A stretch of DNA of 64,000 bases from Hydractinia symbiolongicarpus (Eukaryota; Cnidaria; Hydrozoa; Anthoathecata; Hydractiniidae). Positions 1-43,811 of the stretch are shown here, piece after piece. The position numbers and the translations under genes were made by a program. The stretch is taken from positions 11,968,001 to 12,032,000 of the forward strand of contig NC_079884.1 of the NCBI RefSeq assembly GCF_029227915.1, given 5' to 3'. The first letter of the stretch is position 1. The number at the start of each line of letters is the position of its first letter. The notes under the pieces were generated by a model, which had not been told where the DNA came from, made no database searches, and saw only the letters and a list, made by a program, of their open reading frames with translations.

Positions 1-288
1 GGGTTTAAATATATTGAGAACAAAATCGTAGAAAACTCGCGTCCTTGTTTTTATTAATGGTGCTGAAAATTGCAGTAAATTAAAATTTTTGTCAAATTTA
101 TATTGTCAGATGTCAAAAAATATTGTTATATTTTTAAACGTCTGGGATCTAGGGTCTAAGAATATTGTGGAATTTACTTTGTTGTCAATAGTTTATTTTC
201 ATGTGATAAAATTACTCGAATTTTTGAAAGAATGTCGAAATTTAAAAAACGCCAAATAAATTAAATTGGATCAATAAGTCTTCTGATA

Positions 289-314
289 GGCAATGCTGGA
301 CTCGCGCAGCTGTG
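289..314. other. GC hairpin in the spacer followed by a T-run (representative)
   Basis: In an otherwise AT-rich spacer, S-type units contain TCGCGCA-GCTG-TGCGCGA, a 7-bp stem followed directly by T-rich sequence. L-type units read CGCGCA-GATG-TGCGCG, so the stem core persists while the loop differs. It recurs once per unit throughout the array. Function unknown. Confidence 0.45.
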
Positions 315-699
315 CGCGATTGTTTTTACTTTTTACCAACTGGTTTATACCAATTGCCCTAAAATCTGTAAAATAATAGATAAGGAACCATTTCTTTGTA
401 AGCCAATGTTTACAAATTCTTTACACGCCTTTACTTTAAAAAGGACATGCGTTAGAAGGAAATCAACCTACGGTTTTAAGGTTAAAAACTAGGCCTGTTC
501 TTTAGAGATAAAAATAATGACCCGGCTGCAAAGAATTTTGAAATTCTTAAAGAAAGAGTGTGAATACCAAATTAAACAGCCAGCATCTAAAGTATCTACG
601 CAAAGGTTCCTTGTAAAACATACGTGTTTATGAAAGTAAAAAAAAAAGACCAAAAGTGCCTGGTTAAGAATTTAATCCGAACTTGTTTCTACGTTTTCC

Positions 700-731
700 T
701 TCAAAAATTAAAGAGTATATTGGAAAGAAAA
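700..731 (-). terminator. Pol III T-run terminators at SRP RNA 3' end (representative)
   Basis: The RNA ends in a T4 run (728-731 on the plus strand as AAAA). A second run, TTTTT (plus CAAAAATT near 704-709), follows about 20-25 nt later in the units and could act as a backup stop. Copy 21 has lost the first run. Confidence 0.6.
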
Positions 732-1031
732 TCTTCGTTCGACTGTCTTGCGCGGGCTACCGAACACCACCTATTCACAGGCGCTATCCCACTACTGCTC
801 AGCGCGGGAACTTTTGCCTGCTGCGTTTCCGCCCTGGGCCGATACGTTCCTCATTATCGAACCTGGTACTACATGAATTCCTTCCTGTAGACCATGTTGA
901 CACTGAGCTTAGTGTGGACGCCTGATCGACATAGACAACTGACCGATAGTGGTCCCGAACTCAAGCCGTTCGTAAGTTTAGTCTCCAAGTAGCTGGATTA
1001 CAGGTGCACGCCACTACACCCAACTGACGGC
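728..1031 (-). ncRNA. 7SL: SRP RNA (7SL), array copy 1
   Basis: The minus strand matches metazoan 7SL RNA over its whole length. In RNA sense the Alu domain contains UGUAAUCCAGCUACUUGG. The S domain contains GGCCCAGGGCGGAAACGC (helix 8 with GGAA loop) and CAGUAGUGGGAUAGCGCC (helix 5 return strand), and it closes with UGUGAAUAGG. Helix 6 folds as GAA-[GGAA]-UUC around 879-888. Length (~300 nt) equals the vertebrate RNA. The 3' end is set by a T4 run (plus-strand AAAA at 728-731), a Pol III terminator. The 5' end is placed at GCCGUCAG by alignment to the conserved 7SL start and is approximate. This copy carries the ancestral-looking CACUA helix 5 strand. Confidence 0.97.
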
Positions 1032-1057
1032 GAAGGGTAAAAAGTATTAACTTATGC
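1032..1057 (-). promoter_or_regulatory. Proximal promoter element of SRP RNA genes (representative, copy 1)
   Basis: On the minus strand, directly upstream of the RNA start, all array copies keep TTAATACTTTTTACCCTTC, preceded by ATAAG, with a TATA-like stretch at about -25 to -14. The orphan gene keeps the same block although sequence further out has diverged. Position and AT-richness suit an upstream Pol III element as described for 7SL genes. The function is inferred. Confidence 0.55.
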
Positions 1058-2441: not shown

Positions 2442-3547
2442 GAAGGGTAAAAAGTATTAACTTATGCTTTTTTATTATTCCTTCAAATCAAGAAAAAAAT
2501 TTGCTTAGAGATATCAACTGAATCTTACATTCTTTGTCCAGAATTGTGTTGAATACATAAAAGTAGCATTCGAAATTAGCGGTAGTTTCAAATTTCACGC
2601 GCTACTTTCCATAAAATATTCCTCGCCTGATGAATTTATATTTTTTCTTTTCAACATTTTGCAAAAAGTGAGAACGTGTAAAGAAACGTTTGAATTCGAT
2701 TCCACCTTATGTTACTCCATCGCCGTATACAAATTAGATGACGTCCACCCAGGCAATTCTTCACATAGTATTTTTAATCAAAATACATTTTTCTATCTTC
2801 TTTTATGTTAGAAGCCAATTTATTTTTGTAAGGTATAATTTTCGCAATATCAAAAGTGTGTAGGGTTTAAAAATATTGAGAACAAAATCGTAGAAAACTC
2901 GCGTCCTTGTTTTTATTAATGGTGCTGAAAATTGCAGTAAATTAAAATTTTTGTCAAATTTATATTGTCAGATGTCAAAAAATATTGTTATATTTTTAAA
3001 AGTTTATATAGTTTATTTTCATGTGATAAAATTACTCGAATTTTTGAAAGAATGTCGAAATTTAAAAAACGCCAAATAAATTAAATTGGATCAATAAGTC
3101 TTCTGATAGGCAATGCTGGACTCGCGCAGCTGTGCGCGATTTTTTTACTTTTTACCAACTGGTTTATACCAATTGCACTAAAATCTGTAAAATAATAGAT
3201 AAGGAACCATTTCTTTGTAAGCCAATGTTTACAAATTCTTTACACGCCTTTACTTTAAAAAGGACATGCGTTAGAAGGAAATCAACCTACGGTTTTAAGG
3301 TTAAAAAACTAGGCCTGTTCTTTAGAGATAAGAATAATGCCCCGGCTGCATAGAATTTTGAAATTCTTAAAGAAAGAGTGTGAATACCAAATTAAACAGC
3401 CAACAACTAAAATATCCACGCAAAGGTTCTTTGTAAAACATACGTGTTTATGAAAGTAAAAAAAAAAGACCAAAAGTGCCTGGTTAAGGATTTAATCCGA
3501 ACTTGTTTCTACGTTTTCCTTCAAAAATTAAAGAGTATATTGGAAAG

Positions 3548-3851
3548 AAAATCTTCGTTCGACTGTCTTGCGCGGGCTACCGAACACCACCTATTCACAG
3601 GCGCTATCCCACTACTGTTCAGCGCGGGAACTTTTGCCTGCTGCGTTTCCGCCCTGGGCCGATACGTTCCTCATTATCGAACCTGGTACTACATGAATTC
3701 CTTCCTGTAGACCATGTTGACACTGAGCTTAGGGTGGACGCCTGATCGACATAGACAACTGACCGATAGTGGTCCCGAACTCAAGCCGTTCGTAAGTTTA
3801 GTCTCCAAGTAGCTGGATTACAGGTGCACGCCACTACACCCAACTGACGGC
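3548..3851 (-). ncRNA. 7SL: SRP RNA (7SL), array copy 3
   Basis: Appears identical to copy 2 across the RNA, including the CTGTTCAGC variant, so copies 2 and 3 look like a recent duplication. Confidence 0.97.
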
Positions 3852-4955
3852 GAAGGGTAAAAAGTATTAACTTATGCTTTTTTATTATTCCTTCAAATCA
3901 AGAAAAAAATTTGCTTAGAGATATCAACTGAATCTTACATTCATTGTCCAGAATTGTGTTGAATACATAAAAGTAGCATTCGAAATTAGCGGTAGTTTCA
4001 AATTTCACGCGCTACTTTCCATAAAATATTCCTCGCCTGATGAATTTATATTTTTTCTTTTCAACATTTTGCAAAAAGTGAGAACGTGTAAAGAAACGTT
4101 TGAATTCGATTCCACCTTATGTTACTCCATCGTCGTATACAAATTAGATGACGTCCACCCAGGCAATTCTTCACATAGTATTTTTAATCAAAATACATTT
4201 TTCTATCTTCTTTTATGTTAAAAGCCAATAAATTTTTGTAAGGTATAATTTTCGCAATATTAAAAGTGTGTAGGGTTTAAATATATTGAGAACAAAATCG
4301 TAGAAAACTCGCGTCCTTGTTTTTATTAATGGTGCTGAAAATTGCAGTAAATTAAAATTTTTGTCAAATTTATATTGTCAGATGTCAAAAAATATTGTTA
4401 TATTTTTAAAAGTTTATATAGTTTATTTTCATGTGATAAAATTACTCGAATTTTTGAAAGAATGTCGAAATTTAAAAAACGCCAAATAAATTAAATTGGA
4501 TCAATAAGTCTTCTGATAGGCAATGCTGGACTCGCGCAGCTGTGCGCGATTTTTTTACTTTTTACCAACTGGTTTATACCAATTGCACTAAAATCTGTAA
4601 AATAATAGATAAGGAACCATTTCTTTGTAAGCCAATGTTTACAAATTCTTTACACGCCTTTACTTTAAAAAGGACATGCGTTAGAACGAAATCAACCTAC
4701 GGTTTTAAGGTTAAAAAACTAGGCCTGTTCTTTAGAGATAAGAATAATGCCCCGGCTGCATAGAATTTTGAAATTCTTAAAGAAAGAGTGTGAATACCAA
4801 ATTAAACAGCCAGCAACTAAAGTATCTACGCAAAGGTTCCTTGTAAAACATACGTGTTTATGAAATTAAAAAAAAGACCAAAAGTGCCTGGTTAAGAATT
4901 TAATCCGAACTTGTTTCTACGTTTTCCTTCAAAAATTAAAGAGTATATTGGAAAG

Positions 4956-5259
4956 AAAATCTTCGTTCGACTGTCTTGCGCGGGCTACCGAAAACCACCT
5001 ATTCACAGGCGCTATCCCACTACTGCTCAGCGCGGGAACTTTTGCCTGCTGCGTTTCCGCCTTGGGCCGATACGTTCCTCATTATCGAACCTGGTACTAC
5101 ATGAACTCCTTCCTGTAGACCATGTTGACACTGAGCTTAGTGTGGACGCCTGATCGACATAGACAACTGACCGATAGTGGTCCCGAACTCAAGCCGTTCG
5201 TAAGTTTAGTCTCCAAGTAGCTGGATTACAGGTGCACGCCACTACACCCAACTGACGGC
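4956..5259 (-). ncRNA. 7SL: SRP RNA (7SL), array copy 4, GGAG helix 6 loop
   Basis: Helix 6 loop is GGAG rather than GGAA (plus-strand TGAACTCC), still a GNAR loop as SRP19 recognition requires. Also has GAAAACC for GAACACC in the 3' Alu-domain strand and one change beside helix 8 (plus GCCTTGGGCC). Helix 5 strand is CACUA. Confidence 0.96.
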
Positions 5260-6366
5260 GAAAGGTAAAAAGTATTAACTTATGCTTTTTTATTATTCCT
5301 TCAAATCAAGAAAAAAATTTGCTTAGAGATATCAACTGAATCTTACATTCTTTGTCCAGAATTGTGTTGAATACATAAAAGTAGCATTCGAAATTAGCGG
5401 TAGTTTCAAATTTCACGCGCTACTTTCCATAAAATATTCCTCGCCTGATGAATTTATATTTTTTCTTTTCAACATTTTGCAAAAAGTGAGAACGTGTAAA
5501 GAAACGTTTGAATTCGATTCCACCTTATGTTACTCCATCGCCGTATACAAATTAGATGACGTCCACCCAGGCAATTCTTCACATAGTATTTTTAATCAAA
5601 ATACATTTTTCTATCTTCTTTTATGTTAGAAGCCAATAAATTTTTGTAAGGTATAATTTTCGCAATATCAAAAGTGTGTAGGGTTTAAATATATTGAGAA
5701 CAAAATCGTAGAAAACTCGCGTCCTTGTTTTTATTAATGGTGCTGAAAATTGCAGTAAATTAAAATTTTTGTCAAATTTATATTGTCAGATGTCAAAAAA
5801 TATTGTTATATTTTTAAAAAGTTTATATAGTTTATTTTCATGTGATAAAATTACTCGAATTTTTGAAAGAATGTCGAAATTTAAAAAACGCCAAATAAAT
5901 TATATTGGATCAATAAGTCTTCTGATAGGCAATGCTGGAGGCGCGCAGATGTGCGCGATTATTTTTACTTTTTACCAACTGGATTATACCAATTGCACTA
6001 AAATCTGTAAAATAATAGATAAGGAACCATTTTTTTGTAAGCCAATGTTTACAAATTCTTTACACGCCTTTACTTTAAAAAGGACATGCGTTAGAAGGAA
6101 ATCAACCTACGGTTTTAAGGTTAAAAAACTAGGCCTGTTCTTTAGAGATAAAAATAATGACCCGGCTGCAAAGAATTTTGAAATTCTTAAAGAAAGAGTG
6201 TGAATACCAAATTAAACAGCCAGCAACTAAAGTATCTACGCAAAGGTTCCTTGTAAAACATACGTGTTTATGAAATTAAAAAAAAAGACCAAAAGTGCCT
6301 GGTTAAGAATTTAATCCGAACTTGTTTCTACGTTTTCCTTCAAAAATTAAAGAGTATATTGGAAAG

Positions 6367-6670
6367 AAAATCTTCGTTCGACTGTCTTGCGCGGGCTACC
6401 GAAAACCACCTATTCACAGGCGCTATCCCACTACTGCTCAGCGCGGGAACTTTTGCCTGCTGCGTTTCCGCCCTGGGCCGATACGTTCCTCATTATCAAA
6501 CCTGGTACTACCTGAACTCCTTCCTGTAGACCATGTTGACACTGAGCTTAGTGTGGACGCCTGATCGACATAGACAACTGACCGATAGTGGTCCCGAACT
6601 CAAGCCGTTCGTAAGTTTAGTCTCCAAGTAGCTGGATTACAGGTGCACGCCACTACACCCAACTGACGGC
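6367..6670 (-). ncRNA. 7SL: SRP RNA (7SL), array copy 5, GGAG helix 6 loop
   Basis: Shares the GGAG helix 6 loop and the GAAAACC variant with copy 4. Adds two private changes (plus ATTATCAAACC and CTACCTGAAC). Helix 5 strand is CACUA. Confidence 0.96.
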
Positions 6671-7778
6671 GAAGGGTAAAAAGTATTAACTTATGCTTTT
6701 TTATTATTCCTTCAAATCAAGAAAAAAATTTGCTTAGAGATATCAACTGAATCTTACATTCTTTGTCCAGAATTGTGTTGAATACATAAAAGTAGCATTC
6801 GAAATTAGCGGTAGTTTCAAATTTCACGCGCTACTTTCCATAAAATATTCCTCGCCTGATGAATTTATATTTTTTCTTTTCAACATTTTGCAAAAAGTGA
6901 GAACGTGTAAAGAAACGTTTGAATTCGATTCCACCTTATGTTACTCCATCGCCGTATACAAATTAGATGACGTCCACCCAGGCAATTCTTCACATAGTAT
7001 TTTTAATCAAAATACATTTTTCTATCTTCTTTTATGTTAGAAGCCAATAAATTTTTGTAAGGTATAATTTTCGCAATATCAAAAGTGTGTAGGGTTTAAA
7101 TATATTGAGAACAAAATCGTAGAAAACTCGCGTCCTTGTTTTTATTAATGGTGCTGAAAATTGCAGTAAATTAAAATTTTTGTCAAATTTATATTGTCAG
7201 ATGTCAAAAAATATTGTTATATTTTTAAAAAGTTTATATAGTTTATTTTCATGTGATAAAATTACTCGAATTTTTGAAAGAATGTCGAAATTTAAAAAAC
7301 GCCAAATAAATTAAATTGGATCAATAAGTCTTCTGATAGGCAATGCTGGACTCGCGCAGCTGTGCGCGATTGTTTTTACTTTTTACCAACTGGTTTATAC
7401 CAATTGCACTAAAATCTGTAAAATAATAGATAAGGAACCATTTCTTTGTAAGCCAATTTTTACAAATTCTTTACACGCCTTTACTTTAAAAAGGACATGC
7501 GTTAGAAGGAAATCAACCTACGGTTTTAAGGTTAAAAAACTAGGCCTGTTCTTTAGAGATAAGAATAATGCCCCGGCTGCATAGAATTTTGAAATTCTTA
7601 AAGAAAGACTGTGAATACCAAATTAAACAGCCAGCAACTAAAATATCCACGCAAAGGTTCTTTGTAAAACATACGTGTTTATGAAAGTAAAAAAAAAAGA
7701 CCAAAAGTGCCTGGTTAAGGATTTAATCCGAACTTGTTTCTACGTTTTCCTTCAAAAATTAAAGAGTATATTGGAAAG

Positions 7779-8082
7779 AAAATATTCGTTCGACTGTCTT
7801 GCGCGGGCTACCGAACACCACCTATTCACAGACGCTATCCCACTACTGCTCAGCGCGGGAACTTTTGCCTGGTGCGTTTCCGCCCTGGGCCGATACGTTC
7901 CTCATTATCGAACCTGGTACTACATGAATTCCTTCCTGTAGACCATGTTGACACTGAGCTTAGGGTGGACGCCTGACCGACATAGACAACTGACCGATAG
8001 TGGTCCCGAACTCAAGCCGTTCGTAAGTTTAGTCTCCAAGTAGCTGGATTACAGGTGCACGCCACTACACCCAACTGACGGC
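7779..8082 (-). ncRNA. 7SL: SRP RNA (7SL), array copy 6
   Basis: The terminator-proximal sequence reads AATATTTT. Private changes at plus CACAGACGCT, GCCTGGTGCG and CTGACCGACAT make this one of the more diverged copies. Helix 5 strand is CCCUA. Confidence 0.95.
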
Positions 8083-9067: not shown

Positions 9068-9230
9068 ATACCAAATTAAACAGCCAGCAACTAAAGTATC
9101 TACGCAAAGGTTCCTTGTAAAACATACGTGTTTATGAAATTAAAAAAAAAGACCAAAAGTGCCTGGTTAAGAATTTAATCCGAACTTGTTTCTACGTTTT
9201 CCTTCAAAAATTAAAGAGTATATTGGAAAG

Positions 9231-9534
9231 AAAATCTTCGTTCGACTGTCTTGCGCGGGCTACCGAACACCACCTATTCACAGGCGCTATCCCACTACTG
9301 CTCAGCGCGGGAACTTTTGCCTGCTGCGTTTCCGCCCTGGGCCGATACGTTCCTCATTATCGAACCTGGTACTACATGAATTCCTTCCTGTAGACCATGT
9401 TGACACTGAGCTTAGTGTGGACGCCTGATCGACATAGACAACTGACCGATAGTGGTCCCGAACTCAAGCCGTTCGTAAGTTTAGTCTCCAAGTAGCTGGA
9501 TTACAGGTGCACGCCACTACACCCAACTGACGGC
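9231..9534 (-). ncRNA. 7SL: SRP RNA (7SL), array copy 7
   Basis: RNA sequence matches copy 1, including the CACUA helix 5 strand and the T4 terminator. Confidence 0.97.
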
Positions 9535-10683
9535 GAAGGGTAAAAAGTATTAACTTATGCTTTTTTATTATTCCTTCAAATCAAGAAAAAAATTTGCTTA
9601 GAGATATGAACTGAATCTTACATTCTTTGTCCAGAATTGTGTTGAATACATAAAAGTAGCATTCGAAATTAGCGGTAGTTTCAAATTTCACGCGCTACTT
9701 TCCATAAAATATTCCTCGCCTGATGAATTTATATTTTTTCTTTTCAACATTTTGCAAAAAGTGAGAACGTGTAAAGAAACGTTTGAATTCGATTCCACCT
9801 TATGTTACTCCATCGCCGTATACAAATTAGATGACGTCCACCCAGCCAATTTTTCACATGGTATTTTTAATCAAAATACATTTTTCTATCTTCTTTTATG
9901 TTAGAAGCCAATTTATTTTTGTAATGTATAATTTTCGCAATATCAAAAGTGTGCAGGGTTTAAATATATTGAGAACAAAATCGTAGAAAACTCGCGTCCT
10001 TGTTTTTATTAATGGTGCTGAAAATTGCAGTAAATTAAAATTTTTGTCAAATTTATATTGTCAGATGTCAAAAAATATTGTTATATTTTTAAACGTCTGG
10101 GATCTAAGGTCTAAGAATATTGTGGAATTTACTTTGTTGTCAATAGTTTATTTTCATGTGATAAAATTACTCGAATTTTTGAAAGAATGTCGAAATTTAA
10201 AAAACGCCAAATAAATTAAATTGGATCAATAAGTCTTCTGATAGGCAATGCTGGACTGGCGCAGCTGTGCGCGATTGTTTTTACTTTTTACCAACTGGTT
10301 TATACCAATTGCACTAAAATCTGTAAAATAATAGATAAGGAACCATTTCTTTGTAAGCCAATTTTTACAAATTCTTTACACGCCTTTACTTTAAAAAGGA
10401 CATGCGTTAGAAGGAAATCAACCTACGGTTTTAAGGTTAAAAAACTAGGCCTGTTCTTTAGAGATAAGAATAATGCCCCGGCTGCATAGAATTTTGAAAT
10501 TCTTAAAGAAAGAGTGTGAATACCAAATTAAACAGCCAGCAACTAAAATATCCACGCAAAGGTTCTTTGTAAAACATACGTGTTTATGAAAGTAAAAAAA
10601 AAAGACCAAAAGTGCCTGGTTAAGGATTTAATCCGAACTTGTTTCTACGTTTTCCTTCAAAAATTAAAGAGTATATTGGAAAG

Positions 10684-10987
10684 AAAATATTCGTTCGACT
10701 GTCTTGCGCGGGTTACCGAACACCACCTATTCACAGGCGCTATCCCACTACTGCTCAGCGCGGGAACTTTTGCCTGCTGCGTTTCCGCCCTGGGCCGATA
10801 CGTTCCTCATTATCGAACCTGGTACTACATGAATTCCTTCCTGTAGACCATGTTGACACTGAGCTTAGGGTGGACGCCTGATCGACATAGACAACTGACC
10901 AATAGTGGTCCCGAACTCAAGCCGTTCGTAAGTTTAGTCTCCAAGTAGCTGGATTACAGGTGCACGCCACTACACCCAACTGACGGC
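10684..10987 (-). ncRNA. 7SL: SRP RNA (7SL), array copy 8
   Basis: AATATTTT 3' end shared with copies 6, 9 and 10. Private changes at plus GCGGGTTACC and GACCAATAGTGG. The upstream T-run is one base shorter than usual (plus GGGTAAAAGT). Helix 5 strand is CCCUA. Confidence 0.96.
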
Positions 10988-12135
10988 AAAGGGTAAAAGT
11001 ATTAACTTATGCTTTTTTATTATTCCTTCAAACCAAGAAAAAAATTTGCTTAGAGATATCAACTGAATCTTACATTCTTTGTCCAGAATTGTGTTGAATA
11101 CATAAAAGTAGCATTCGAAATTAGCGGTAGTTTCAAATTTCACGCGCTACTTTCCATAAAATATTCCTCGCCTGATGAATTTATATTTTTTCTTTTCAAC
11201 ATTTTGCAAAAAGTGAGAACGTGTAAAGAAACGTTTGAATTCGATTCCACCTTATGTTACTCCATCGCCGTATACAAATTAGATGACGTCCACCCAGCCA
11301 ATTTTTCACACGGTATTTTTAATCAAAATACATTTTTCTATCTTCTTTTATGTTAGAAGCCAATTTATTTTTGTAAGGTATAATTTTCGCAATATCAAAA
11401 GTGTGCAGGGTTTAAATATATTGAGAACAAAATCGTAGAAAACTCGCGTCCTTGTTTTTATTAATGGTGCTGAAAATTGCAGTAAATTAAAATTTTTGTC
11501 AAATTTATATTGTCAGATGTCAAAAAATATTGTTATATTTTTAAACGTCTGGGATCTAAGGTCTAAGAATATTGTGGAATTTACTTTGTTGTCAATAGTT
11601 TATTTTCATGTGATAAAATTACTCGAATTTTTGAAAGAATGTCGAAATTTAAAAAACGCCAAATAAATTAAATTGGATCAATAAGTCTTCTGATAGGCAA
11701 TGCTGGACTGGCGCAGCTGTGCGCGATTGTTTTTACTCTTTACCAACTGGTTTATACCAATTGCACTAAAATCTGTAAAATAATAGATAAGGAACCATTT
11801 CTTTGTAAGCCAATTTTTACAAATTCTTTACACGCCTTTTCTTTAAAAAGGACATGCGTTAGAAGGAAATCAACCTACGGTTTTAAGGTTAAAAAACTAG
11901 GCCTGTTCTTTAGAGATAAGAATAATGCCCCGGCTGCATAGAATTTTGAAATTCTTAAAGAAAGAGTGTGAATACCAAATTAAACAGCCAGCAACTAAAA
12001 TATCCACGCAAAGGTTCTTTGTAAAACATACGTGTTTATGAAAGTAAAAAAAAAAGACCAAAAGTGCCTGGTTAAGGATTTAATCCGAACTTGTTTCTAC
12101 GTTTTCCTTCAAAAATTAAAGAGTATATTGGAAAG

Positions 12136-12439
12136 AAAATATTCGTTCGACTGTCTTGCGCGGGCTACCGAACACCACCTATTCACAGGCGCTATCCCAC
12201 TACTGCTCAGCGCGGGAACTTTTGCCTGCTGCGTTTCCGCCCTGGGCCGATACGTTCCTCATTATCGAACCTGGTACTACATGAATTCCTTCCTGTAGAC
12301 CATGTTGACACTGAGCTTAGGGTGGACGCCTGATCGACATAGACAACTGACCGATAGTGGTCCCGAACTCAAGCCGTTCGTAAGTTTAGTCTCCAAGTAG
12401 CTGGATTACAGGTGCACGCCACTACACCCAACTGACGGC
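12136..12439 (-). ncRNA. 7SL: SRP RNA (7SL), array copy 9
   Basis: Consensus apart from the AATATTTT 3' end and CCCUA helix 5 strand. Shares the shortened upstream T-run with copy 8. Confidence 0.97.
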
Positions 12440-13587: not shown

Positions 13588-13891
13588 AAAATATTCGTTC
13601 GACTGTCTTGCGCGGGCTACCGAACACCACCTATTCACAGGCGCTATCCCACTACTGCTCAGCGCGGGAACTTTTGCCTGCTGCGTTTCCGCCCTGGGCC
13701 GATACGTTCCTCATTATCGAACCTGGTACTACATGAATTCCTTCCTGTAGACCATGTTGACACTGAGCTTAGGGTGGACGCCTGATCGACATAGACAACT
13801 GACCGATAGTGGTCCCGAACTCAAGCCGTTCGTAAGTTTAGTCTCCAAGTAGCTGGATTACAGGTGCACGCCACTACACCCAACTGACGGC
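13588..13891 (-). ncRNA. 7SL: SRP RNA (7SL), array copy 10
   Basis: Same RNA as copy 9 (AATATTTT end, CCCUA strand) but with the standard upstream sequence. Confidence 0.97.
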
Positions 13892-31026: not shown

Positions 31027-32174
31027 GAAGGGTAAAAAGTATTAACTTATGCTTTTTTATTATTCCTTCAAATCAAGAAAGAAATTTGCTTAGAGATATC
31101 AACTGAATCTTACATTCTTTGTCCAGAATTGTGTTGAATACATAAAAGTAGCATTCGAAATTAGCGGTAGTTTCAAATTTCACGCGCTACTTTCCATAAA
31201 ATATTCCTCGCCTGATGAATTTATATTTTTTCTTTTCAACATTTTGCAAAAAGTGAGAACGTGTAAAGAAACGTTTGAATTCGATTCCACCTTATGTTAC
31301 TCCATCGCCGTATACAAATTAGATGACGTCCACCCAGGCAATTCTTCACATGGTATTTTTAATCAAAATACATTTTTCTATCTTCTTTTATGTTAGAAGT
31401 CAATTTATTTTTGTAAGGTATAATTTTCGCAATATCAAAAGTGTGCAGAGTTTAAATATATTGAGAACAAAATCGTAGAAAACTCGCGTCCTTGTTTTTA
31501 TTAATGGTGCTGAAAATTGCAGTAAATTAAAATTTTTGTCAAATTTATATTGTCAGATGTCAAAAAATATTGTTATATTTTTAAACATCTGGGATCTAAG
31601 GTCTAAGAATATTGTGGAATTTACTTTGTTGTCAATAGTTTATTTTCATGTGATAAAATTACTCGAATTTTTGAAAAAATGTCGAAATTTAAAAAACGCC
31701 AAATAAATTATATTGGATCAATAAGTCTTCTGATAGGCAATGCTGGAGGCGCGCAGATGTGCGCGATTATTTTTACTTTTTGCCAACTGGATTATACCAA
31801 TTGCACTAAAATCTGTAGAATAATAGATAAGGAACCATTTCTTTGTAAGCCAATGTTTACAAATTCTTTACACCCCTTTACTTTAAAAAGGACATGCGTT
31901 AGAAGGAAATCAACCTACGGTTTTAAGGTTAAAAAACTAGGCCTGTTCTTTAGAGATAAAAATAATGACCCGGCTGCAAAGAATTTTGAAATTCTTAAAG
32001 AAAGAGTGTGAATACCAAATTAAACAGCCAGCAACTAAAGTATCTACGCAAAGGTTCCTTGTAAAACATACGTGTTTATGAAAGTAAAAAAAAAGACCAA
32101 AAGTGCCTGGTTAAGAATTTAATCCGAACTTGTTTCTACGTTTTCCTTCAAAAATTAAAGAGTATATTGGAAAG

Positions 32175-32478
32175 AAAATCTTCGTTCGACTGTCTTGCGC
32201 GGGCTACCGAACACCACCTATTCACAGGCGCTATCCCACTACTGCTCAGCGCGGGAACTTTTGCCTGCTGCGTTTCCGCCCTGGGCCGATACGTTCCTCA
32301 TTATCGAACCTGGTACTACATGAATTCCTTCCTGTAGACCATGTTGACACTGAGCTTAGTGTGGACGCCTGATCGACATAGACAACTGATCGATAGTGGT
32401 CCAGAACTCAAGCCGTTCGTAAGTTTAGTCTCCAAGTAGCTGGATTACAGATGCACGCCACTACACCCAACTGACGGC
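32175..32478 (-). ncRNA. 7SL: SRP RNA (7SL), array copy 23 (A type)
   Basis: A-type copy: GGAA helix 8 loop, CACUA helix 5 strand, CGATCAG in helix 5 and AUCUGUAAUCC in the Alu domain (plus ATTACAGATGC). One private change (plus GGTCCAGAAC). Confidence 0.97.
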
Positions 32479-33626
32479 GAAGGGTAAAAAGTATTAACTT
32501 ATGCTTTTTTATTATTCCTTCAAATCAAGAAAAAAATTTGCTTAAAGATATCAACTGAATCTTACATTCTTTGTCCAGAATTGTGTTGAATACATAAAAG
32601 TAGCATTCGAAATTAGCGGTAGTTTCAAATTTCACGCGCTACATTCCATAAAATATTCCTCGCCTGATGAATTGATATTTTTTCTTTTCAACATTTTGCA
32701 AAAAGTGAGAACGTGTAAAGAAACGTTTGAATTCGATTCCACCTTATGTTACTCCATCGCCGTATACAAATTAGATGACGTCCACCCAGGCAATTCTTCA
32801 CATAGTATTTTTAATCAAAATACATTTTTCTATCTTCTTTTATGTTAGAAGCCAATTTATTTTTGTAAGGTATAATTTTCGCAATATCAAAAGTGTGTAG
32901 GGTTTAAAAATATTGAGAACAAAATCGTAGAAAACTCGCGTCCTTGTTTTTATTAATGGTGCTGAAAATTGCAGTAAATTAAAATTTTTGTCAAATTTAT
33001 ATTGTCAGATGTCAAAAAATATTGTTATATTTTTAAACGTCTGGGATCTAAGGTCTAAGAATATTGTGGAATTTACTTTGTTGTCAATAGTTTATTTTCA
33101 TGTGATAAAATTACTCGAATTTTTGAAAAAATGTCGAAATTTAAAAAACGCCAAATAAATTATATTGGATCAATAAGTCTTCTGATAGACAATGCTGGAG
33201 GCGCGCAGATGTGCGCGATTATTTTTACTTTTTGCCAACTGGATTATACCAATTGCACTAAAATCTGTAGAATAATAGATAAGGAACCATTTTTTTGTAA
33301 GCCAATGTTTACAAATTCTTTACACCCCTTTACTTTAAAAAGGACATGCGTTAGAAGGAAATCAACCTACGGTTTTAAGGTTAAAAAACTAGGCCTGTTC
33401 TTTAGAGATAAAAATAATGACCCGGCTGCAAAGAATTTTGAAATTCTTAAAGAAAGAGTGTGAATACCAAATTAAACAGCCAGCAACTAAAGTATCTACG
33501 CAAAGGTTCCTTGTAAAACATACGTGTTTATGAAAGTAAAAAAAAAGACCAAAAGTGCCTGGTTAAGAATTTAATCCGAACTTGTTTCTACGTTTTCCTT
33601 CAAAAATTAAAGAGTATATTGGAAAG

Positions 33627-33930
33627 AAAATCTTCGTTCGACTGTCTTGCGCGGGCTACCGAACACCACCTATTCACAGGCGCTATCCCACTACTGCTCA
33701 GCGCGGGAACTTTTGCCTGCTGCGTTTTCGCCCTGGGCCGATACGTTCCTCATTATCGAACCTGGTCCTACATGAATTCCTTCCTGTAGACCATGTTGAC
33801 ACTGAGCTTAGGGTGGACGCCTGATCGACATAGACAACTGACCGATAGTGGTCCCGAACTCAAGCCGTTCGTAAGTTTAGTCTCCAAGTAGCTGGATTAC
33901 AGGTGCACGCCACTACACCCAACTGACGGC
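33627..33930 (-). ncRNA. 7SL: SRP RNA (7SL), array copy 24 (B type)
   Basis: B-type copy with GAAA helix 8 loop and a private change beside helix 6 (plus CTGGTCCTAC). Confidence 0.97.
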
Positions 33931-35078
33931 GAAGGGTAAAAAGTATTAACTTATGCTTTTTTATTATTCCTTCAAATCAAGAAAAAAATTTGCTTAGAGA
34001 TATCAACTGAATCTTACATTCTTTGTCCAGAATTGTGTTGAATACATAAAAGTAGCATTCGAAATTAGCGGTAGTTTCAAATTTCACGCGCTACTTTCCA
34101 TAAAATATTCCTCGCCTGATGAATTTATATTTTTTCTTTTCAACATTTTGCAAAAAGTGAGAACGTGTAAAGAAACGTTTGAATTCGATTCCACCTTATG
34201 TTACTCCATCGCCGTATACAAATTAGATGACGTCCACCCAGGCAATTCTTCACATGGTATTTTTAATCAAAATACATTTTTCTATCTTCTTTTATGTTAG
34301 AAGTCAATTTATTTTTGTAAGGTATAATTTTCGCAATATCAAAAGTGTGCAGAGTTTAAATATATTGAGAACAAAATCGTAGAAAACTCGCGTCCTTGTT
34401 TTTATTAATGGTGCTGAAAATTGCAGTAAATTAAAATTTTTGTCAAATTTATATTGTCAGATGTCAAAAAATATTGTTATATTTTTAAACGTCTGGGATC
34501 TAAGGTCTAAGAATATTGTGGAATTTACTTTGTTGTCAATAGTTTATTTTCATGTGATAAAATTACTCGAATTTTTGAAAAAATGTCGAAATTTAAAAAA
34601 CGCCAAATAAATTATATTGGATCAATAAGTCTTCTGATAGGCAATGCTGGAGGCGCGCAGATGTGCGCGATTATTTTTACTTTTTGCCAACTGGATTATA
34701 CCAATTGCACTAAAATCTGTAGAATAATAGATAAGGAACCATTTTTTTGTAAGCCAATGTTTACAAATTCTTTACACCCCTTTACTTTAAAAAGGACATG
34801 CGTTAGAAGGAAATCAACCTACGGTTTTAAGGTTAAAAAACTAGGCCTGTTCTTTAGAGATAAAAATAATGACCCGGCTGCAAAGAATTTTGAAATTCTT
34901 AAAGAAAGAGTGTGAATACCAAATTAAACAGCCAGCAACTAAAGTATCTACGCAAAGGTTCCTTGTAAAACATACGTGTTTATGAAAGTAAAAAAAAAGA
35001 CCAAAAGTGCCTGGTTAAGAATTTAATCCGAACTTGTTTCTACGTTTTCCTTCAAAAATTAAAGAGTATATTGGAAAG

Positions 35079-35382
35079 AAAATCTTCGTTCGACTGTCTT
35101 GCGCGGGCTACCGAACACCACCTATTCACAGGCGCTATCCCACTACTGCTCAGCGCGGGAACTTTTGCCTGCTGCGTTTCCGCCCTGGGCCGATACGTTC
35201 CTCATTATCGAACCTGGTACTACATGAATTCCTTCCTGTAGACCATGTTGACACTGAGCTTAGTGTGGACGCCTGATCGACATAGACAACTGATCGATAG
35301 TGGTCCCGAACTCAAGCCGTTCGTAAGTTTAGTCTCCAAGTAGCTGGATTACAGATGCACGCCACTACACCCAACTGACGGC
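35079..35382 (-). ncRNA. 7SL: SRP RNA (7SL), array copy 25 (A type)
   Basis: A-type copy, as copy 23 but without its private change. Confidence 0.97.
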
Positions 35383-36530
35383 GAAGGGTAAAAAGTATTA
35401 ACTTATGCTTTTTTATTATTCCTTCAAATCAAGAAAAAAATTTGCTTAAAGATATCAACTGAATCTTACATTCTTTGTCCAGAATTGTGTTGAATACATA
35501 AAAGTAGCATTCGAAATTAGCGGTAGTTTCAAATTTCACGCGCTACATTCCATAAAATATTCCTCGCCTGATGAATTGATATTTTTTCTTTTCAACATTT
35601 TGCAAAAAGTGAGAACGTGTAAAGAAACGTTTGAATTCGATTCCACCTTATGTTACTCCATCGCCGTATACAAATTAGATGACGTCCACCCAGGCAATTC
35701 TTCACATAGTATTTTTAATCAAAATACATTTTTCTATCTTCTTTTATGTTAGAAGCCAATTTATTTTTGTAAGGTATAATTTTCGCAATATCAAAAGTGT
35801 GTAGGGTTTAAAAATATTGAGAACAAAATCGTAGAAAACTCGCGTCCTTGTTTTTATTAATGGTGCTGAAAATTGCAGTAAATTAAAATTTTTGTCAAAT
35901 TTATATTGTCAGATGTCAAAAAATATTGTTATATTTTTAAACGTCTGGGATCTAAGGTCTAAGAATATTGTGGAATTTACTTTGTTGTCAATAGTTTATT
36001 TTCATGTGATAAAATTACTCGAATTTTTGAAAAAATGTCGAAATTTAAAAAACGCCAAATAAATTATATTGGATCAATAAGTCTTCTGATAGACAATGCT
36101 GGAGGCGCGCAGATGTGCGCGATTATTTTTACTTTTTGCCAACTGGATTATACCAATTGCACTAAAATCTGTAGAATAATAGATAAGGAACCATTTTTTT
36201 GTAAGCCAATGTTTACAAATTCTTTACACCCCTTTACTTTAAAAAGGACATGCGTTAGAAGGAAATCAACCTACGGTTTTAAGGTTAAAAAACTAGGCCT
36301 GTTCTTTAGAGATAAAAATAATGACCCGGCTGCAAAGAATTTTGAAATTCTTAAAGAAAGAGTGTGAATACCAAATTAAACAGCCAGCAACTAAAGTATC
36401 TACGCAAAGGTTCCTTGTAAAACATACGTGTTTATGAAAGTAAAAAAAAAGACCAAAAGTGCCTGGTTAAGAATTTAATCCGAACTTGTTTCTACGTTTT
36501 CCTTCAAAAATTAAAGAGTATATTGGAAAG

Positions 36531-36834
36531 AAAATCTTCGTTCGACTGTCTTGCGCGGGCTACCGAACACCACCTATTCACAGGCGCTATCCCACTACTG
36601 CTCAGCGCGGGAACTTTTGCCTGCTGCGTTTTCGCCCTGGGCCGATACGTTCCTCATTATCGAACCTGGTACTACATGAATTCCTTCCTGTAGACCATGT
36701 TGACACTGAGCTTAGGGTGGACGCCTGATCGACATAGACAACTGACCGATAGTGGTCCCGAACTCAAGCCGTTCGTAAGTTTAGTCTCCAAGTAGCTGGA
36801 TTACAGGTGCACGCCACTACACCCAACTGACGGC
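36531..36834 (-). ncRNA. 7SL: SRP RNA (7SL), array copy 26 (B type)
   Basis: B-type copy with GAAA helix 8 loop and no private change seen. Confidence 0.97.
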
Positions 36835-37982
36835 GAAGGGTAAAAAGTATTAACTTATGCTTTTTTATTATTCCTTCAAATCAAGAAAAAAATTTGCTTA
36901 GAGATATCAACTGAATCTTACATTCTTTGTCCAGAATTGTGTTGAATACATAAAAGTAGCATTCGAAATTAGCGGTAGTTTCAAATTTCACGCGCTACTT
37001 TCCATAAAATATTCCTCGCCTGATGAATTTATATTTTTTCTTTTCAACATTTTGCAAAAAGTGAGAACGTGTAAAGAAACGTTTGAATTCGATTCCACCT
37101 TATGTTACTCCATCGCCGTATACAAATTAGATGACGTCCACCCAGGCAATTCTTCACATGGTATTTTTAATCAAAATACATTTTTCTATCTTCTTTTATG
37201 TTAGAAGTCAATTTATTTTTGTAAGGTATAATTTTCGCAATATCAAAAGTGTGCAGAGTTTAAATATATTGAGAACAAAATCGTAGAAAACTCGCGTCCT
37301 TGTTTTTATTAATGGTGCTGAAAATTGCAGTAAATTAAAATTTTTGTCAAATTTATATTGTCAGATGTCAAAAAATATTGTTATATTTTTAAACGTCTGG
37401 GATCTAAGGTCTAAGAATATTGTGGAATTTACTTTGTTGTCAATAGTTTATTTTCATGTGATAAAATTACTCGAATTTTTGAAAAAATGTCGAAATTTAA
37501 AAAACGCCAAATAAATTATATTGGATCAATAAGTCTTCTGATAGGCAATGCTGGAGGCGCGCAGATGTGCGCGATTATTTTTACTTTTTGCCAACTGGAT
37601 TATACCAATTGCACTAAAATCTGTAGAATAATAGATAAGGAACCATTTTTTTGTAAGCCAATGTTTACAAATTCTTTACACCCCTTTACTTTAAAAAGGA
37701 CATGCGTTAGAAGGAAATCAACCTACGGTTTTAAGGTTAAAAAACTAGGCCTGTTCTTTAGAGATAAAAATAATGACCCGGCTGCAAAGAATTTTGAAAT
37801 TCTTAAAGAAAGAGTGTGAATACCAAATTAAACAGCCAGCAACTAAAGTATCTACGCAAAGGTTCCTTGTAAAACATACGTGTTTATGAAAGTAAAAAAA
37901 AAGACCAAAAGTGCCTGGTTAAGAATTTAATCCGAACTTGTTTCTACGTTTTCCTTCAAAAATTAAAGAGTATATTGGAAAG

Positions 37983-38286
37983 AAAATCTTCGTTCGACTG
38001 TCTTGCGCGGGCTACCGAACACCACCTATTCACAGGCGCTATCCCACTACTGCTCAGCGCGGGAACTTTTGCCTGCTGCGTTTCCGCCCTGGGCCGATAC
38101 GTTCCTCATTATCGAACCTGGTACTACATGAATTCCTTCCTGTAGACCATGTTGACACTGAGCTTAGTGTGGACGCCTGATCGACATAGACAACTGATCG
38201 ATAGTGGTCCCGAACTCAAGCCGTTCGTAAGTTTAGTCTCCAAGTAGCTGGATTACAGATGCACGCCACTACACCCAACTAACGGC
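37983..38286 (-). ncRNA. 7SL: SRP RNA (7SL), array copy 27 (A type)
   Basis: A-type copy with one further change close to the 5' end (plus CCAACTAACGG), shared with copy 29. Confidence 0.97.
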
Positions 38287-39435
38287 GAAGGGTAAAAAGT
38301 ATTAACTTATGCTTTTTTATTATTCCTTCAAATCAAGAAAAAAATTTGCTTAAAGATATCAACTGAATCTTACATTCTTTGTCCAGAATTGTGTTGAATA
38401 CATAAAAGTAGCATTCGAAATTAGCGGTAGTTTCAAATTTCACGCGCTACATTCCATAAAATATTCCTCGCCTGATGAATTGATATTTTTTCTTTTCAAC
38501 ATTTTGCAAAAAGTGAGAACGTGTAAAGAAACGTTTGAATTCGATTCCACCTTATGTTACTCCATCGCCGTATACAAATTAGATGACGTCCACCCAGGCA
38601 ATTCTTCACATAGTATTTTTAATCAAAATACATTTTTCTATCTTCTTTTATGTTAGAAGCCAATTTATTTTTGTAAGGTATAATTTTCGCAATATCAAAA
38701 GTGTGTAGGGTTTAAAAATATTGAGAACAAAATCGTAGAAAACTCGCGTCCTTGTTTTTATTAATGGTGCTGAAAATTGCAGTAAATTAAAATTTTTGTC
38801 AAATTTATATTGTCAGATGTCAAAAAATATTGTTATATTTTTAAACGTCTGGGATCTAAGGTCTAAGAATATTGTGGAATCTACTTTGTTGTCAATAGTT
38901 TATTTTCATGTGATAAAATTACTCGAATTTTTGAAAAAATGTCGAAATTTAAAAAACGCCAAATAAATTATATTGGATCAATAAGTCTTCTGATAGGCAA
39001 TGCTGGAGGCGCGCAGATGTGCGCGATTATTTTTACTTTTTGCCAACTGGATTATACCAATTGCACTAAAATCTGTAGAATAATAGATAAGGAACCATTT
39101 TTTTGTAAGCCAATGTTTACAAATTCTTTACACGCCTTTACTTTAAAAAGGACATGCGTTAGAAGGAAATCAACCTACGGTTTTAAGGTTAAAAAACTAG
39201 GCCTGTTCTTTAGAGATAAAAATAATGACCCGGCTGCAAAGAATTTTGAAATTCTTAAAGAAAGAGTGTGAATACCAAATTAAACAGCCAGCAACTAAAG
39301 TATCTACGCAAAGGTTCCTTGTAAAACATACGTGTTTATGAAAGTAAAAAAAAAAGACCAAAAGTGCCTGGTTAAGAATTTAATCCGAACTTGTTTCTAC
39401 GTTTTCCTTCAAAAATTAAAGAGTATATTGGAAAG

Positions 39436-39739
39436 AAAATCTTCGTTCGACTGTCTTGCGCGGGCTACCGAACACCACCTATTCACAGGCGCTATCCCAC
39501 TACTGCTCAGCGCGGGAACTTTTGCCTGCTGCGTTTTCGCCCTGGGCCGATACGTTCCTCATTATCGAACCTGGTACTACATGAATTCCTTCCTGTAGAC
39601 CATGTTGACACTGAGCTTAGGGTGGACGCCTGATCGACATAGACAACTGACCGATAGTGGTCCCGAACTCAAGCCGTTCGTAAGTTTAGTCTCCAAGTAG
39701 CTGGATTACAGGTGCACGCCACTACACCCAACTGACGGC
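39436..39739 (-). ncRNA. 7SL: SRP RNA (7SL), array copy 28 (B type)
   Basis: B-type copy with GAAA helix 8 loop and no private change seen. Confidence 0.97.
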
Positions 39740-40887
39740 GAAGGGTAAAAAGTATTAACTTATGCTTTTTTATTATTCCTTCAAATCAAGAAAAAAATTT
39801 GCTTAGAGATATCAACTGAATCTTACATTCTTTGTCCAGAATTGTGTTGAATACATAAAAGTAGCATTCGAAATTAGCGGTAGTTTCAAATTTCACGCGC
39901 TACTTTCCATAAAATATTCCTCGCCTGATGAATTTATATTTTTTCTTTTCAACATTTTGCAAAAAGTGAGAACGTGTAAAGAAACGTTTGAATTCGATTC
40001 CACCTTATGTTACTCCATCGCCGTATACAAATTAGATGACGTCCACCCAGGCAATTCTTCACATGGTATTTTTAATCAAAATACATTTTTCTATCTTCTT
40101 TTATGTTAGAAGTCAATTTATTTTTGTAAGGTATAATTTTCGCAATATCAAAAGTGTGCAGAGTTTAAATATATTGAGAACAAAATCGTAGAAAACTCGC
40201 GTCCTTGTTTTTATTAATGGTGCTGAAAATTGCAGTAAATTAAAATTTTTGTCAAATTTATATTGTCAGATGTCAAAAAATATTGTTATATTTTTAAACG
40301 TCTGGGATCTAAGGTCTAAGAATATTGTGGAATTTACTTTGTTGTCAATAGTTTATTTTCATGTGATAAAATTACTCGAATTTTTGAAAAAATGTCGAAA
40401 TTTAAAAAACGCCAAATAAATTATATTGGATCAATAAGTCTTCTGATAGGCAATGCTGGAGGCGCGCAGATGTGCGCGATTATTTTTACTTTTTGCCAAC
40501 TGGATTATACCAATTGCACTAAAATCTGTAGAATAATAGATAAGGAACCATTTTTTTGTAAGCCAATGTTTACAAATTCTTTACACCCCTTTACTTTAAA
40601 AAGGACATGCGTTAGAAGGAAATCAACCTACGGTTTTAAGGTTAAAAAACTAGGCCTGTTCTTTAGAGATAAAAATAATGACCCGGCTGCAAAGAATTTT
40701 GAAATTCTTAAAGAAAGAGTGTGAATACCAAATTAAACAGCCAGCAACTAAAGTATCTACGCAAAGGTTCCTTGTAAAACATACGTGTTTATGAAAGTAA
40801 AAAAAAAGACCAAAAGTGCCTGGTTAAGAATTTAATCCGAACTTGTTTCTACGTTTTCCTTCAAAAATTAAAGAGTATATTGGAAAG

Positions 40888-41191
40888 AAAATCTTCGTTC
40901 GACTGTCTTGCGCGGGCTACCGAACACCACCTATTCACAGGCGCTATCCCACTACTGCTCAGCGCGGGAACTTTTGCCTGCTGCGTTTCCGCCCTGGGCC
41001 GATACGTTCCTCATTATCGAACCTGGTACTACATGAATTCCTTCCTGTAGACCATGTTGACACTGAGCTTAGTGTGGACGCCTGATCGACATAGACAACT
41101 GATCGATAGTGGTCCCGAACTCAAGCCGTTCGTAAGTTTAGTCTCCAAGTAGCTGGATTACAGATGCACGCCACTACACCCAACTAACGGC
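40888..41191 (-). ncRNA. 7SL: SRP RNA (7SL), array copy 29 (A type)
   Basis: A-type copy sharing the CCAACTAACGG variant with copy 27, one dimer period away. Confidence 0.97.
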
Positions 41192-42340
41192 GAAGGGTAA
41201 AAAGTATTAACTTATGCTTTTTTATTATTCCTTCAAATCAAGAAAAAAATTTGCTTAAAGATATCAACTGAATCTTACATTCTTTGTCCAGAATTGTGTT
41301 GAATACATAAAAGTAGCATTCGAAATTAGCGGTAGTTTCAAATTTCACGCGCTACATTCCATAAAATATTCCTCGCCTGATGAATTGATATTTTTTCTTT
41401 TCAACATTTTGCAAAAAGTGAGAACGTGTAAAGAAACGTTTGAATTCGATTCCACCTTATGTTACTCCATCGCCGTATACAAATTAGATGACGTCCACCC
41501 AGGCAATTCTTCACATAGTATTTTTAATCAAAATACATTTTTCTATCTTCTTTTATGTTAGAAGCCAATTTATTTTTGTAAGGTATAATTTTCGCAATAT
41601 CAAAAGTGTGTAGGGTTTAAAAATATTGAGAACAAAATCGTAGAAAACTCGCGTCCTTGTTTTTATTAATGGTGCTGAAAATTGCAGTAAATTAAAATTT
41701 TTGTCAAATTTATATTGTCAGATGTCAAAAAATATTGTTATATTTTTAAACGTCTGGGATCTAAGGTCTAAGAATATTGTGGAATCTACTTTGTTGTCAA
41801 TAGTTTATTTTCATGTGATAAAATTACTCGAATTTTTGAAAAAATGTCGAAATTTAAAAAACGCCAAATAAATTATATTGGATCAATAAGTCTTCTGATA
41901 GGCAATGCTGGAGGCGCGCAGATGTGCGCGATTATTTTTACTTTTTGCCAACTGGATTATACCAATTGCACTAAAATCTGTAGAATAATAGATAAGGAAC
42001 CATTTTTTTGTAAGCCAATGTTTACAAATTCTTTACACGCCTTTACTTTAAAAAGGACATGCGTTAGAAGGAAATCAACCTACGGTTTTAAGGTTAAAAA
42101 ACTAGGCCTGTTCTTTAGAGATAAAAATAATGACCCGGCTGCAAAGAATTTTGAAATTCTTAAAGAAAGAGTGTGAATACCAAATTAAACAGCCAGCAAC
42201 TAAAGTATCTACGCAAAGGTTCCTTGTAAAACATACGTGTTTATGAAAGTAAAAAAAAAAGACCAAAAGTGCCTGGTTAAGAATTTAATCCGAACTTGTT
42301 TCTACGTTTTCCTTCAAAAATTAAAGAGTATATTGGAAAG

Positions 42341-42644
42341 AAAATCTTCGTTCGACTGTCTTGCGCGGGCTACCGAACACCACCTATTCACAGGCGCTAT
42401 CCCACTACTGCTCAGCGCGGGAACTTTTGCCTGCTGCGTTTCCGCCCTGGGCCGATACGTTCCTCATTATCGAACCTGGTACTACATGAATTCCTTCCTG
42501 TAGACCATGTTGACACTGAGCTTAGTGTGGACGCCTGATCGACATAGACAACTGATCGATAGTGGTCCCGAACTCAAGCCGTTCGTAAGTTTAGTCTCCA
42601 AGTAGCTGGATTACAGATGCACGCCACTACACCCAACTGACGGC
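42341..42644 (-). ncRNA. 7SL: SRP RNA (7SL), array copy 30 (A type)
   Basis: Last array copy. A-type like its neighbour copy 29, so the A/B alternation stops here. Its 5' end is the normal GACGGC. T4 terminator intact. Confidence 0.97.
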
Positions 42645-43278
42645 GAAGGGTAAAAAGTATTAACTTATGCTTTTTTATTATTCCTTCAAATCAAGAAAAA
42701 AATTTGCTTAAAGATATCAACTGAATCTTACATTCTTTGTCCAGAATTGTGTTGAATACATAAAAGTAGCATTCGAAATTAGCGGTAGTTTCAAATTTCA
42801 CGCGCTACATTCCATAAAATATTCCTCGCCTGATGAATTGATATTTTTTCTTTTCAACATTTTGCAAAAAGTGAGAACGTGTAAAGAAACGTTTGAATTC
42901 GATTCCACCTTATGTTACTCCATCGCCGTATACAAATTAGATGACGTCCACCCAGGCAATTCTTCACATAGTATTTTTAATCAAAATACATTTTTCTATC
43001 TTCTTTTATGTTAGAAGCCAATTTATTTTTGTAAGGTATAATTTTCGCAATATCAAAAGTGTGTAGGGTTTAAAAATATTGAGAACAAAATCGTAGAAAA
43101 CTCGCGTCCTTGTTTTTATTAATGGTGCTGAAAATTGCAGTAAATTAAAATTTTTGTCAAATTTATATTGTCAGATGTCAAAAAATATTGTTATATTTTT
43201 AAACGTCTGGGATCTAGGGTCTAAGAATATTGCGGAATTTACTTTGTTGTCAATAGTTTATTTTCAGTTGATAAAATT

Positions 43279-43811
43279 CTCATAACGTTTCTTTCTAAAC
43301 GGTCAAGATCTTCCTGCTTCGCTGTCCATGTCTCACTACTGTACAACATAACACTTCTTACACAATCCTCATACAACATACCTTTTACCTCAATTGACAA
43401 GACTGTGCTAGTCAACAAAGGAAGTAACTCTCTGAACTTTTTCCAAACAGAACCTATCCTGCAAGTAGGACTTCTTCCAGCACTCCCTTCACTGCCCAAC
43501 ATATCACGTAAGTAACAGAAGTTCTCAACTATCTCTAACAAACTACTGTTGTACATTATTAAAGCTGGAAATACTTCATTCTCTATAATCTCACCTCTGC
43601 AACGCTTGCATACAAACTGAATGTCAGCTCTTAACCTTCCACTATTACTACTGCACTTTTTATGTACCCAATGCTTGCAAGTCTGACAAAAAATTGAGTT
43701 ACTACCAATCCCTTTCCTGCAAACTCCACAAGGCCACTATCCAACTACAAGGTCACACTTAACTGCAATGCTACTAATCATGACTTTAGACTTTGCTGTA
43801 TTCACCTTAGT
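43279..43811 (-). mobile_element. LINE fragment at the array's right border
   Basis: Matches the internal part of the LINE at 49450-52605 (roughly its 49826-50355), covering the PHD-like finger and the sequence after it. It is truncated at both ends and has an in-frame stop near 43739. Its left end abuts the cut SRP unit at 43278/43279 with ATT shared by both partners, suggesting microhomology-mediated joining rather than normal retrotransposition. Confidence 0.85.

Follow-up and report, generated by a model that had tools for sequence, protein, structure and literature searches.

A tandem array of 61 signal recognition particle RNA genes and a nearby solo gene in Hydractinia symbiolongicarpus

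Introduction

Genes for 5S ribosomal RNA (5S rRNA), which are transcribed by RNA polymerase III (Pol III), lie in very many eukaryotes in rows of near-identical units that undergo concerted evolution. Rodent 4.5SH RNA, a shortened derivative of 7SL RNA, has another role than its parent and lacks the S domain. Here we describe a row of genes for 7SL RNA itself, the RNA of the signal recognition particle (SRP RNA), in Hydractinia symbiolongicarpus. The row was studied in a stretch of 64,000 nt, hereafter the window (C10:11968001-12032000), taken from an assembly of 480.9 Mb in 76 contigs. It resembles the 5S arrays in being a row of near-identical units of a Pol III gene.

The closest described systems are found in the same genus. 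Schnitzler et al. (2024) reported evenly spaced tandem arrays of noncoding RNA (ncRNA) genes in both Hydractinia genomes, listed rRNAs, U1, U2, U5, U6, U3, and tRNAs among the arrayed genes, and named SRP RNA arrays in an independent draft of H. echinata (PMC11067881); the present array therefore belongs to a kind already reported. Like the arrays described in the text of that paper, which hold tens to hundreds of near-identical genes at roughly even spacing, it has tens of near-identical copies, roughly even spacing, and near-identical spacers. For the two genomes that text lists no SRP RNA, and its supplements may list the present array; for SRP RNA it provides neither a copy count nor a description of a unit, a solo gene, or a mutation pattern. 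The counts, an apparently ancestral solo gene, and the mutation pattern presented below are new with respect to the literature searched, the supplements of PMC11067881 excluded. A preliminary description of the window, made from the sequence alone, had called a tandem array of SRP RNA genes unusual in animals. This is in keeping with the text of reports on the tunicate Didemnum, with one SRP RNA copy (PMC5006418), and on Schistosoma, with eight probable candidates of which one is almost canonical (PMC2770079), but such arrays had already been reported in Hydractinia.

More distant systems share single features with this locus. In fungi, the SRP RNA gene is likewise multiplied within a tandem unit according to the text of PMC9849065, but there it sits inside the rRNA unit, whereas SRP RNA was the sole RNA gene recognized in the Hydractinia unit searched. 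The gene for 4.5SH RNA is likewise a Pol III gene descended from 7SL and, going by a title cited in this literature, is tandemly repeated by hundreds (PMC10137851, PMC7279448); unlike this RNA or SINE-like (short interspersed nuclear element-like) 7SL derivatives, the Hydractinia array keeps the whole SRP RNA. High numbers of matches to the Metazoa_SRP model (RF00017) have likewise been given for mammals and most of all for primates (6,798 to 48,336), but the text of that work states that the copies of highly variable families largely overlap transposable elements (PMC13197249), whereas in Hydractinia full-length genes lie at one locus in regular units.

Results

Matches to RF00017 above its gathering score of 70 bits were found at 31 places in the window, 30 of which form a head-to-tail row from position 727 to 42637 (first to last gene), the remaining one being a solo gene. 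The 30 genes in the row all lie on the minus strand, score 215.6-235.9 bits, and cover model positions 1-299, with 18 distinct sequences among them. They are spaced 1407-1412 or 1451-1453 bases apart, and the two unit-length classes represent one unit with or without a single indel of 41 bases net (42 aligned columns). This bears out the preliminary description, which had claimed 30 full-length 7SL genes in a head-to-tail array of 1.41/1.45-kb units with no other RNA gene in the unit; the model matched each of these 30 units. No Rfam family other than RF00017 reached its gathering score within the window. When one unit of the 30 was searched against Rfam at E ≤ 1, the sole matches were RF00017 and, overlapping it, a sub-threshold mir-1268; one unit compared with phage records gave no match. 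The window holds the right half of the array (1-43275, minus strand), consisting of these 30 gene-bearing units, the first of them cut by the window edge, and a truncated unit (43060-43278). The right end of the array falls at 43275-43278, and a 533-bp fragment of a non-LTR (non-long terminal repeat) retrotransposon starts at 43276.

Examining the flanks, we scanned 200 kb of extra sequence around the window with the solo gene as query and ran Infernal on some of the flank stretches, others being covered by blastn only. The query found 64 places across window and flanks, which are the array copies, the solo gene at C10:12028972, and an orphan copy (c00) at C10:11897321. Left of the window lie 31 more full-length copies and one partial copy, in agreement with the earlier expectation that the array passes the window edge and that the true number is higher; Infernal gave 10 full-length copies and one partial, another 21 full-length copies, and the orphan at 172.8 bits. 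The whole array comprises 61 full-length genes and one partial (c02) on one strand over about 87 kb (C10:11923295-12010637), and both its ends lie inside one contig. The observation of an array holds, and its extent had been understated. Spacing is mostly 1.41 or 1.45 kb and is regular except at the left edge (c01-c03). All 61 full-length copies, together with the solo gene and the orphan, match RF00017 over positions 1-299, and 44 distinct gene sequences occur among the 61. To the right of the solo gene, neither the solo-gene search nor Infernal found further SRP RNA copies up to position 12082000.

Genome-wide searches led back to the same place. The best 26 of 1533 RF00017 candidates were scored, and all 26 lie at the array locus, as do all 40 of the best 40 scored among 71 candidates from a DNA search. 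A 24-mer from the Alu domain, allowing up to 3 mismatches, occurs at 67 sites in the genome, 63 of them at the array locus, while a reversed control gave 0; therefore, within the limits of this probe, nearly all SRP RNA genes of the genome lie there. The four sites elsewhere are one diverged near-full-length copy on C15 (87.5% identity, 128.5 bits) and three fragments, of 51 nt on C5, 34 nt on C8, and 34 nt on C13.

The fragment on C5 (C5:22457330-22457380) reproduces positions 2-52 of SRP RNA, at its 5' end, exactly over 51 nt, and the flanks of the fragment, compared over 1.4 kb, match neither the array unit nor the solo region. Those on C8 and C13 belong to two copies of an interspersed repeat on the minus strand (C8:13869801-13870600 and C13:15324501-15325300), 73% alike over 472 bp, in which the shared part starts about 5 nt ahead of a 34-nt head matching 7SL positions 18-51. 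This repeat could be a SINE-like family with a 7SL-derived head.

The solo gene (60972-61268, minus strand), which was absent from the list in the preliminary description, lies 18 kb to the right of the array and scores highest in the window, at 238 bits. T293A is the sole base difference from it that is common to all 61 array copies. The copies carry 0-9 changes beyond T293A, or 1-10 differences in total, and in c33 and c39 T293A is the only change, so that the best identity between an array gene and the solo gene is 296/297. The block common to the solo gene and the array unit (60924-61485, minus strand) amounts to 566 aligned bases at 85%, and outside the gene the alignment reaches only about 200 bases on the 5' side and about 47 bases on the 3' side. 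Since the orphan keeps T293, A293 is probably derived, and the solo gene apparently keeps the ancestral SRP RNA sequence. The array would then have been born from a duplicated solo-type gene together with its flanks. The orphan also carries most of a unit's spacer, in four pieces at 79-88% identity, which suggests that an older repeat probably preceded the present row and existed before that row became uniform.

The individual array genes in the window are as follows. Gene 1 (727-1024) and gene 7 (9230-9527) both reach 235.9 bits and equal the solo gene except for T293A. Between these two lie genes 2 (2137-2434) and 3 (3547-3844), each at 226.5 bits, gene 4 (4955-5252, 233.1 bits), gene 5 (6366-6663, 234.7 bits), and gene 6 (7778-8075), which at 215.6 bits is the lowest in the window; gene 4 carries G191A and gene 6 carries G204C, both in the helix 8 core. 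There follow gene 8 (10683-10980, 220.7 bits), genes 9 (12135-12432) and 10 (13587-13884) at 227.8 bits, genes 11 (14998-15295) and 12 (16450-16747) at 229.9 bits, gene 13 (17903-18199, 221.6 bits), and gene 14 (19355-19652, 228.7 bits). Gene 15 (20766-21059, 218.7 bits) has a 4-nt deletion at positions 86-89. Genes 16 (22173-22470) and 18 (24995-25292) score 224.7 bits and enclose gene 17 (23584-23881, 222 bits), and genes 19 (26406-26703) and 20 (27818-28115) again score 229.9 bits. The terminator T-run of gene 21 (29271-29568, 216.3 bits) has only three residues. With gene 22 (30722-31019) begins an alternating two-unit block that continues to gene 30; a score of 226.1 bits is shared by genes 22, 26 (36530-36827), and 28 (39435-39732), and one of 233.5 bits by genes 25 (35078-35375), 27 (37982-38279), 29 (40887-41184), and 30 (42340-42637), the last of the array, with genes 23 (32174-32471) and 24 (33626-33923) at 227.7 and 227.3 bits. 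The units of genes 27 and 29 are identical.

Units were compared across the whole array in 59 complete units, with the long-indel columns and the incomplete units of c01, c02, and c03 left out. They are 96.5-100% identical (median 98.0%), and the mean difference between two units grows with their distance, being 20.2 at lag 1 and 31.1 at lag 40. For neighboring units in the window the mean is 16.1 differing positions, compared with 25.5 when the order is shuffled; 0 of 5000 shuffles gave a value this low. A two-unit period of alternation runs through units 22-30 (P 0.0016, for a block chosen after the pattern was seen), and by the four-gamete test 302 of 741 informative site pairs in the window show all four combinations. 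Genes at the left edge (c01-c08, 7 of them full copies) have 5-9 changes each, whereas the median elsewhere is 2, and this diverged edge is found on the left side only. Features of concerted evolution as in ribosomal DNA are thus present, namely neighbors that are more alike, recombinant units, and a diverged (left) edge, and the likeness of neighbors is the pattern that would be expected from unequal exchange and gene conversion.

The distribution of changes between gene and spacer was then considered, with several contrasts tried and P values given without correction. The gene has a higher density of singletons than the spacer when CpG sites, other G/C sites, and A/T sites are taken as strata, the Mantel-Haenszel odds ratio being 1.70 (P 0.011) in the 59 units and 1.82 (P 0.007) in 54 core units. 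The density of singletons in gene versus spacer is 0.300 versus 0.121 at CpG sites and 0.127 versus 0.070 at A/T sites; other G/C sites show no excess in the gene (0.112 versus 0.104). Nor is the gene richer than the spacer in variants that occur in two to three or more copies. Singletons outnumber shared variants in the gene (43:24) but not in the spacer (94:111; P 0.011), and the core units give 39:18 and 80:94 (P 0.004). In the window taken by itself, the gene does not exceed the spacer in its density of segregating sites (P 0.11), and rare variants make up a larger share in the gene (23:6 versus 42:39, P 0.015). We read these contrasts as suggesting that the genes receive more new mutations, fewer of which spread. 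An excess confined to singletons would be compatible with weak selection on copies that are transcribed, and transcribed Pol III genes, such as tRNA genes, may gain more mutations.

A promoter-like element and a terminator-like T-run were present in nearly all copies. The sequence TTAATACTTTT occurs within 40 bases upstream of 58 of the 61 array copies and of the solo gene; by our count, a TTAATA element lies near -26. A terminal run of at least four T residues ends 60 of the 61 copies. In the window, the 300 bases 5' of the genes have fewer segregating sites than the other spacer (12/300 versus 69/855, P 0.018), and this stretch of low variation is perhaps an extended promoter. The SRP54-binding core of helix 8 and its GNRA loop are intact in the solo gene and in 45 of the 61 copies. 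Changes at positions 187-208 affect the other 16: G196A, which turns the helix 8 loop from GAAA to AAAA, in 9, C188T in 2, G192C in 2, and A190T with G201T, G191A, and G204C in 1 each.

Base pairing was assessed with the pairs of the RF00017 model, 95 of 118 of which are standard pairs in the solo gene. Of the 31 distinct changes seen in the 30 genes of the window, 14 break a pair, where 13.3 would be expected; this difference is not significant. Selection against pair-breaking changes was rejected as a signal, being significant neither in these genes nor in all 61.

Discussion

On balance, we lean toward the reading that the array is a dosage row whose active copies raise the output of SRP RNA. 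The array copies would then be transcribed, and selection would act on the pool of copies and not on each copy. That a demand for secretion, in nematocyst-making cells or in eggs, might be the reason for the array is speculation. If the copies are active, SRP RNA would join the RNAs that are dosed by tandem gene number in an animal. The row is also a rare natural experiment, in which 61 almost equal Pol III genes stand beside their spacers and an apparently ancestral solo copy, and it makes two questions testable: whether Pol III transcription raises mutation in its own gene, and whether cells tolerate mixed SRP RNA variants in the particle.

Several observations weigh against a dosage role. 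The RNA might come from the solo gene alone. A112C, which together with G196A is the commonest of the changes and breaks a pair in helix 5, is found in 28 of 61 copies, and 24 of 61 are altered in one of three conserved motifs (positions 12-15, 23-37, and 187-208); only 10 of 61 are free of a broken pair (48-293 excepted), a motif change, or an indel. Every array copy in the window is predicted to fold more weakly than the solo gene (-96.3 to -102.2 versus -103.6 kcal/mol). Pair-breaking is near random in the 61 copies: of 66 singletons, 26 break a pair where 27.9 would be expected, and of 25 shared changes, 8 do so where 11.5 would be expected (P 0.084). Polishing errors or context effects could mimic part of the singleton excess. 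The genome was also searched for proteins of the particle, these searches and those for other RNA genes below covering best-scoring candidates only. The SRP54 M domain gave one exon match among the best 2 candidates scored, and there is therefore no sign of a partner protein amplified in step; SRP19 gave no match among the best 3 candidates scored exon by exon, a result that is uninformative.

Much of this would also be accounted for if the row were a satellite-like repeat carrying SRP RNA genes as passengers, with the solo gene as the main source of working RNA and the array copies mostly silent or drifting. We regard this as possible, although we do not expect it to be the case. It would be in keeping with the best score and the most stable predicted fold, which among the 31 genes in the window belong to the solo gene, with at least one change from that gene in every array copy, with pair-breaking at a random rate, and with the frequency of A112C and of the GNRA-loop change G196A; moreover, tandem repeats are given as 15.7% of the H. 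symbiolongicarpus assembly in the text of PMC11067881. Drifting passengers would not, however, be expected to keep a promoter-like element and a terminator in nearly all copies, nor to have 300 upstream bases less variable than the remaining spacer, and the excess of singletons but not of shared variants in the gene would suggest activity together with removal of new changes.

A dosage row might also have a more particular form, which we offer tentatively and consider doubtful. A transcribed and mutation-prone row would yield a mixed pool of SRP RNAs that includes helix 5 and helix 8 loop variants, the supply being run like that of 5S rRNA, while the strictly conserved solo gene would keep the reference sequence. 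Were this true, one could read from the row, as from a natural record, how transcription-associated mutation has acted on a Pol III gene.

It is very improbable that the row is giving rise to a new 7SL-derived RNA that works outside the SRP, comparable to rodent 4.5SH RNA, as each of the 61 copies covers the full length of the SRP RNA model, including the S domain. Least credible is an assembly artifact in which one or two true units were multiplied, for although the units are near-identical, with two pairs identical apart from the excluded long-indel columns, the 44 distinct gene sequences, the spatially ordered variants, the diverged left edge, the orphan unit, and the placement of both array ends within one contig all speak against it, as do the SRP RNA arrays named in the independent H. 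echinata draft and the text of PMC11067881, which argues twice against an artifact for Hydractinia ncRNA arrays.

Other RNA genes and neighboring features

For 5S rRNA, the best 47 of 16011 candidates were scored, and the scored matches cluster in two separate regions, C11:14.09-15.87 Mb and C9:12.18-12.60 Mb. Some neighbors on C9 are 1250 bases apart, and several on C11 are 569 bases or near multiples of this apart. The scored 5S matches are spread over 14.1-15.9 Mb of C11, whereas the SRP RNA row packs 61 genes into about 87 kb. RNase P RNA gave at least 7 matches (best 16 of 8931 candidates) and no row like that of SRP RNA; four strong and two weak matches lie in two similar places on C1 and one on C8. 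The two C1 groups (C1:11501158-11507080 and C1:15079863-15085779), 3.6 Mb apart, have nearly equal internal spacing and look as they would after a segmental duplication. The U6 search, with 4 matches among the best 48 scored and one over the cut-off, is uninformative because U6 arrays are reported in the text of PMC11067881.

Between the array and the solo gene lies a gene for succinate-hydroxymethylglutarate CoA-transferase on the minus strand (45661-59164), in 12 coding pieces, whose product matches CoA_transf_3 at 390.6 bits. Its best solved relatives are 9br7 and 9br6, and entries from Hydra, Hydractinia, and Clytia are among the matches listed. The H. symbiolongicarpus protein P0129 is 56% identical to this CoA-transferase and is probably the product of a paralogue on the same chromosome.

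One non-LTR retrotransposon is present in three copies that are 94-96% alike, at 49380-52700 (minus strand), at 54632-57494 (plus strand), and as the fragment adjoining the truncated last unit of the array (43276-43808, minus strand), which is 94% identical to the element at 49.4-52.7 kb. The element encodes a reverse transcriptase and a PHD finger, the latter just below the cut-off in one copy, and in one copy an endonuclease. Two of the copies sit within the CoA-transferase gene, between its exon pieces, and an uninterrupted frame of 1046 codons is retained in one copy.

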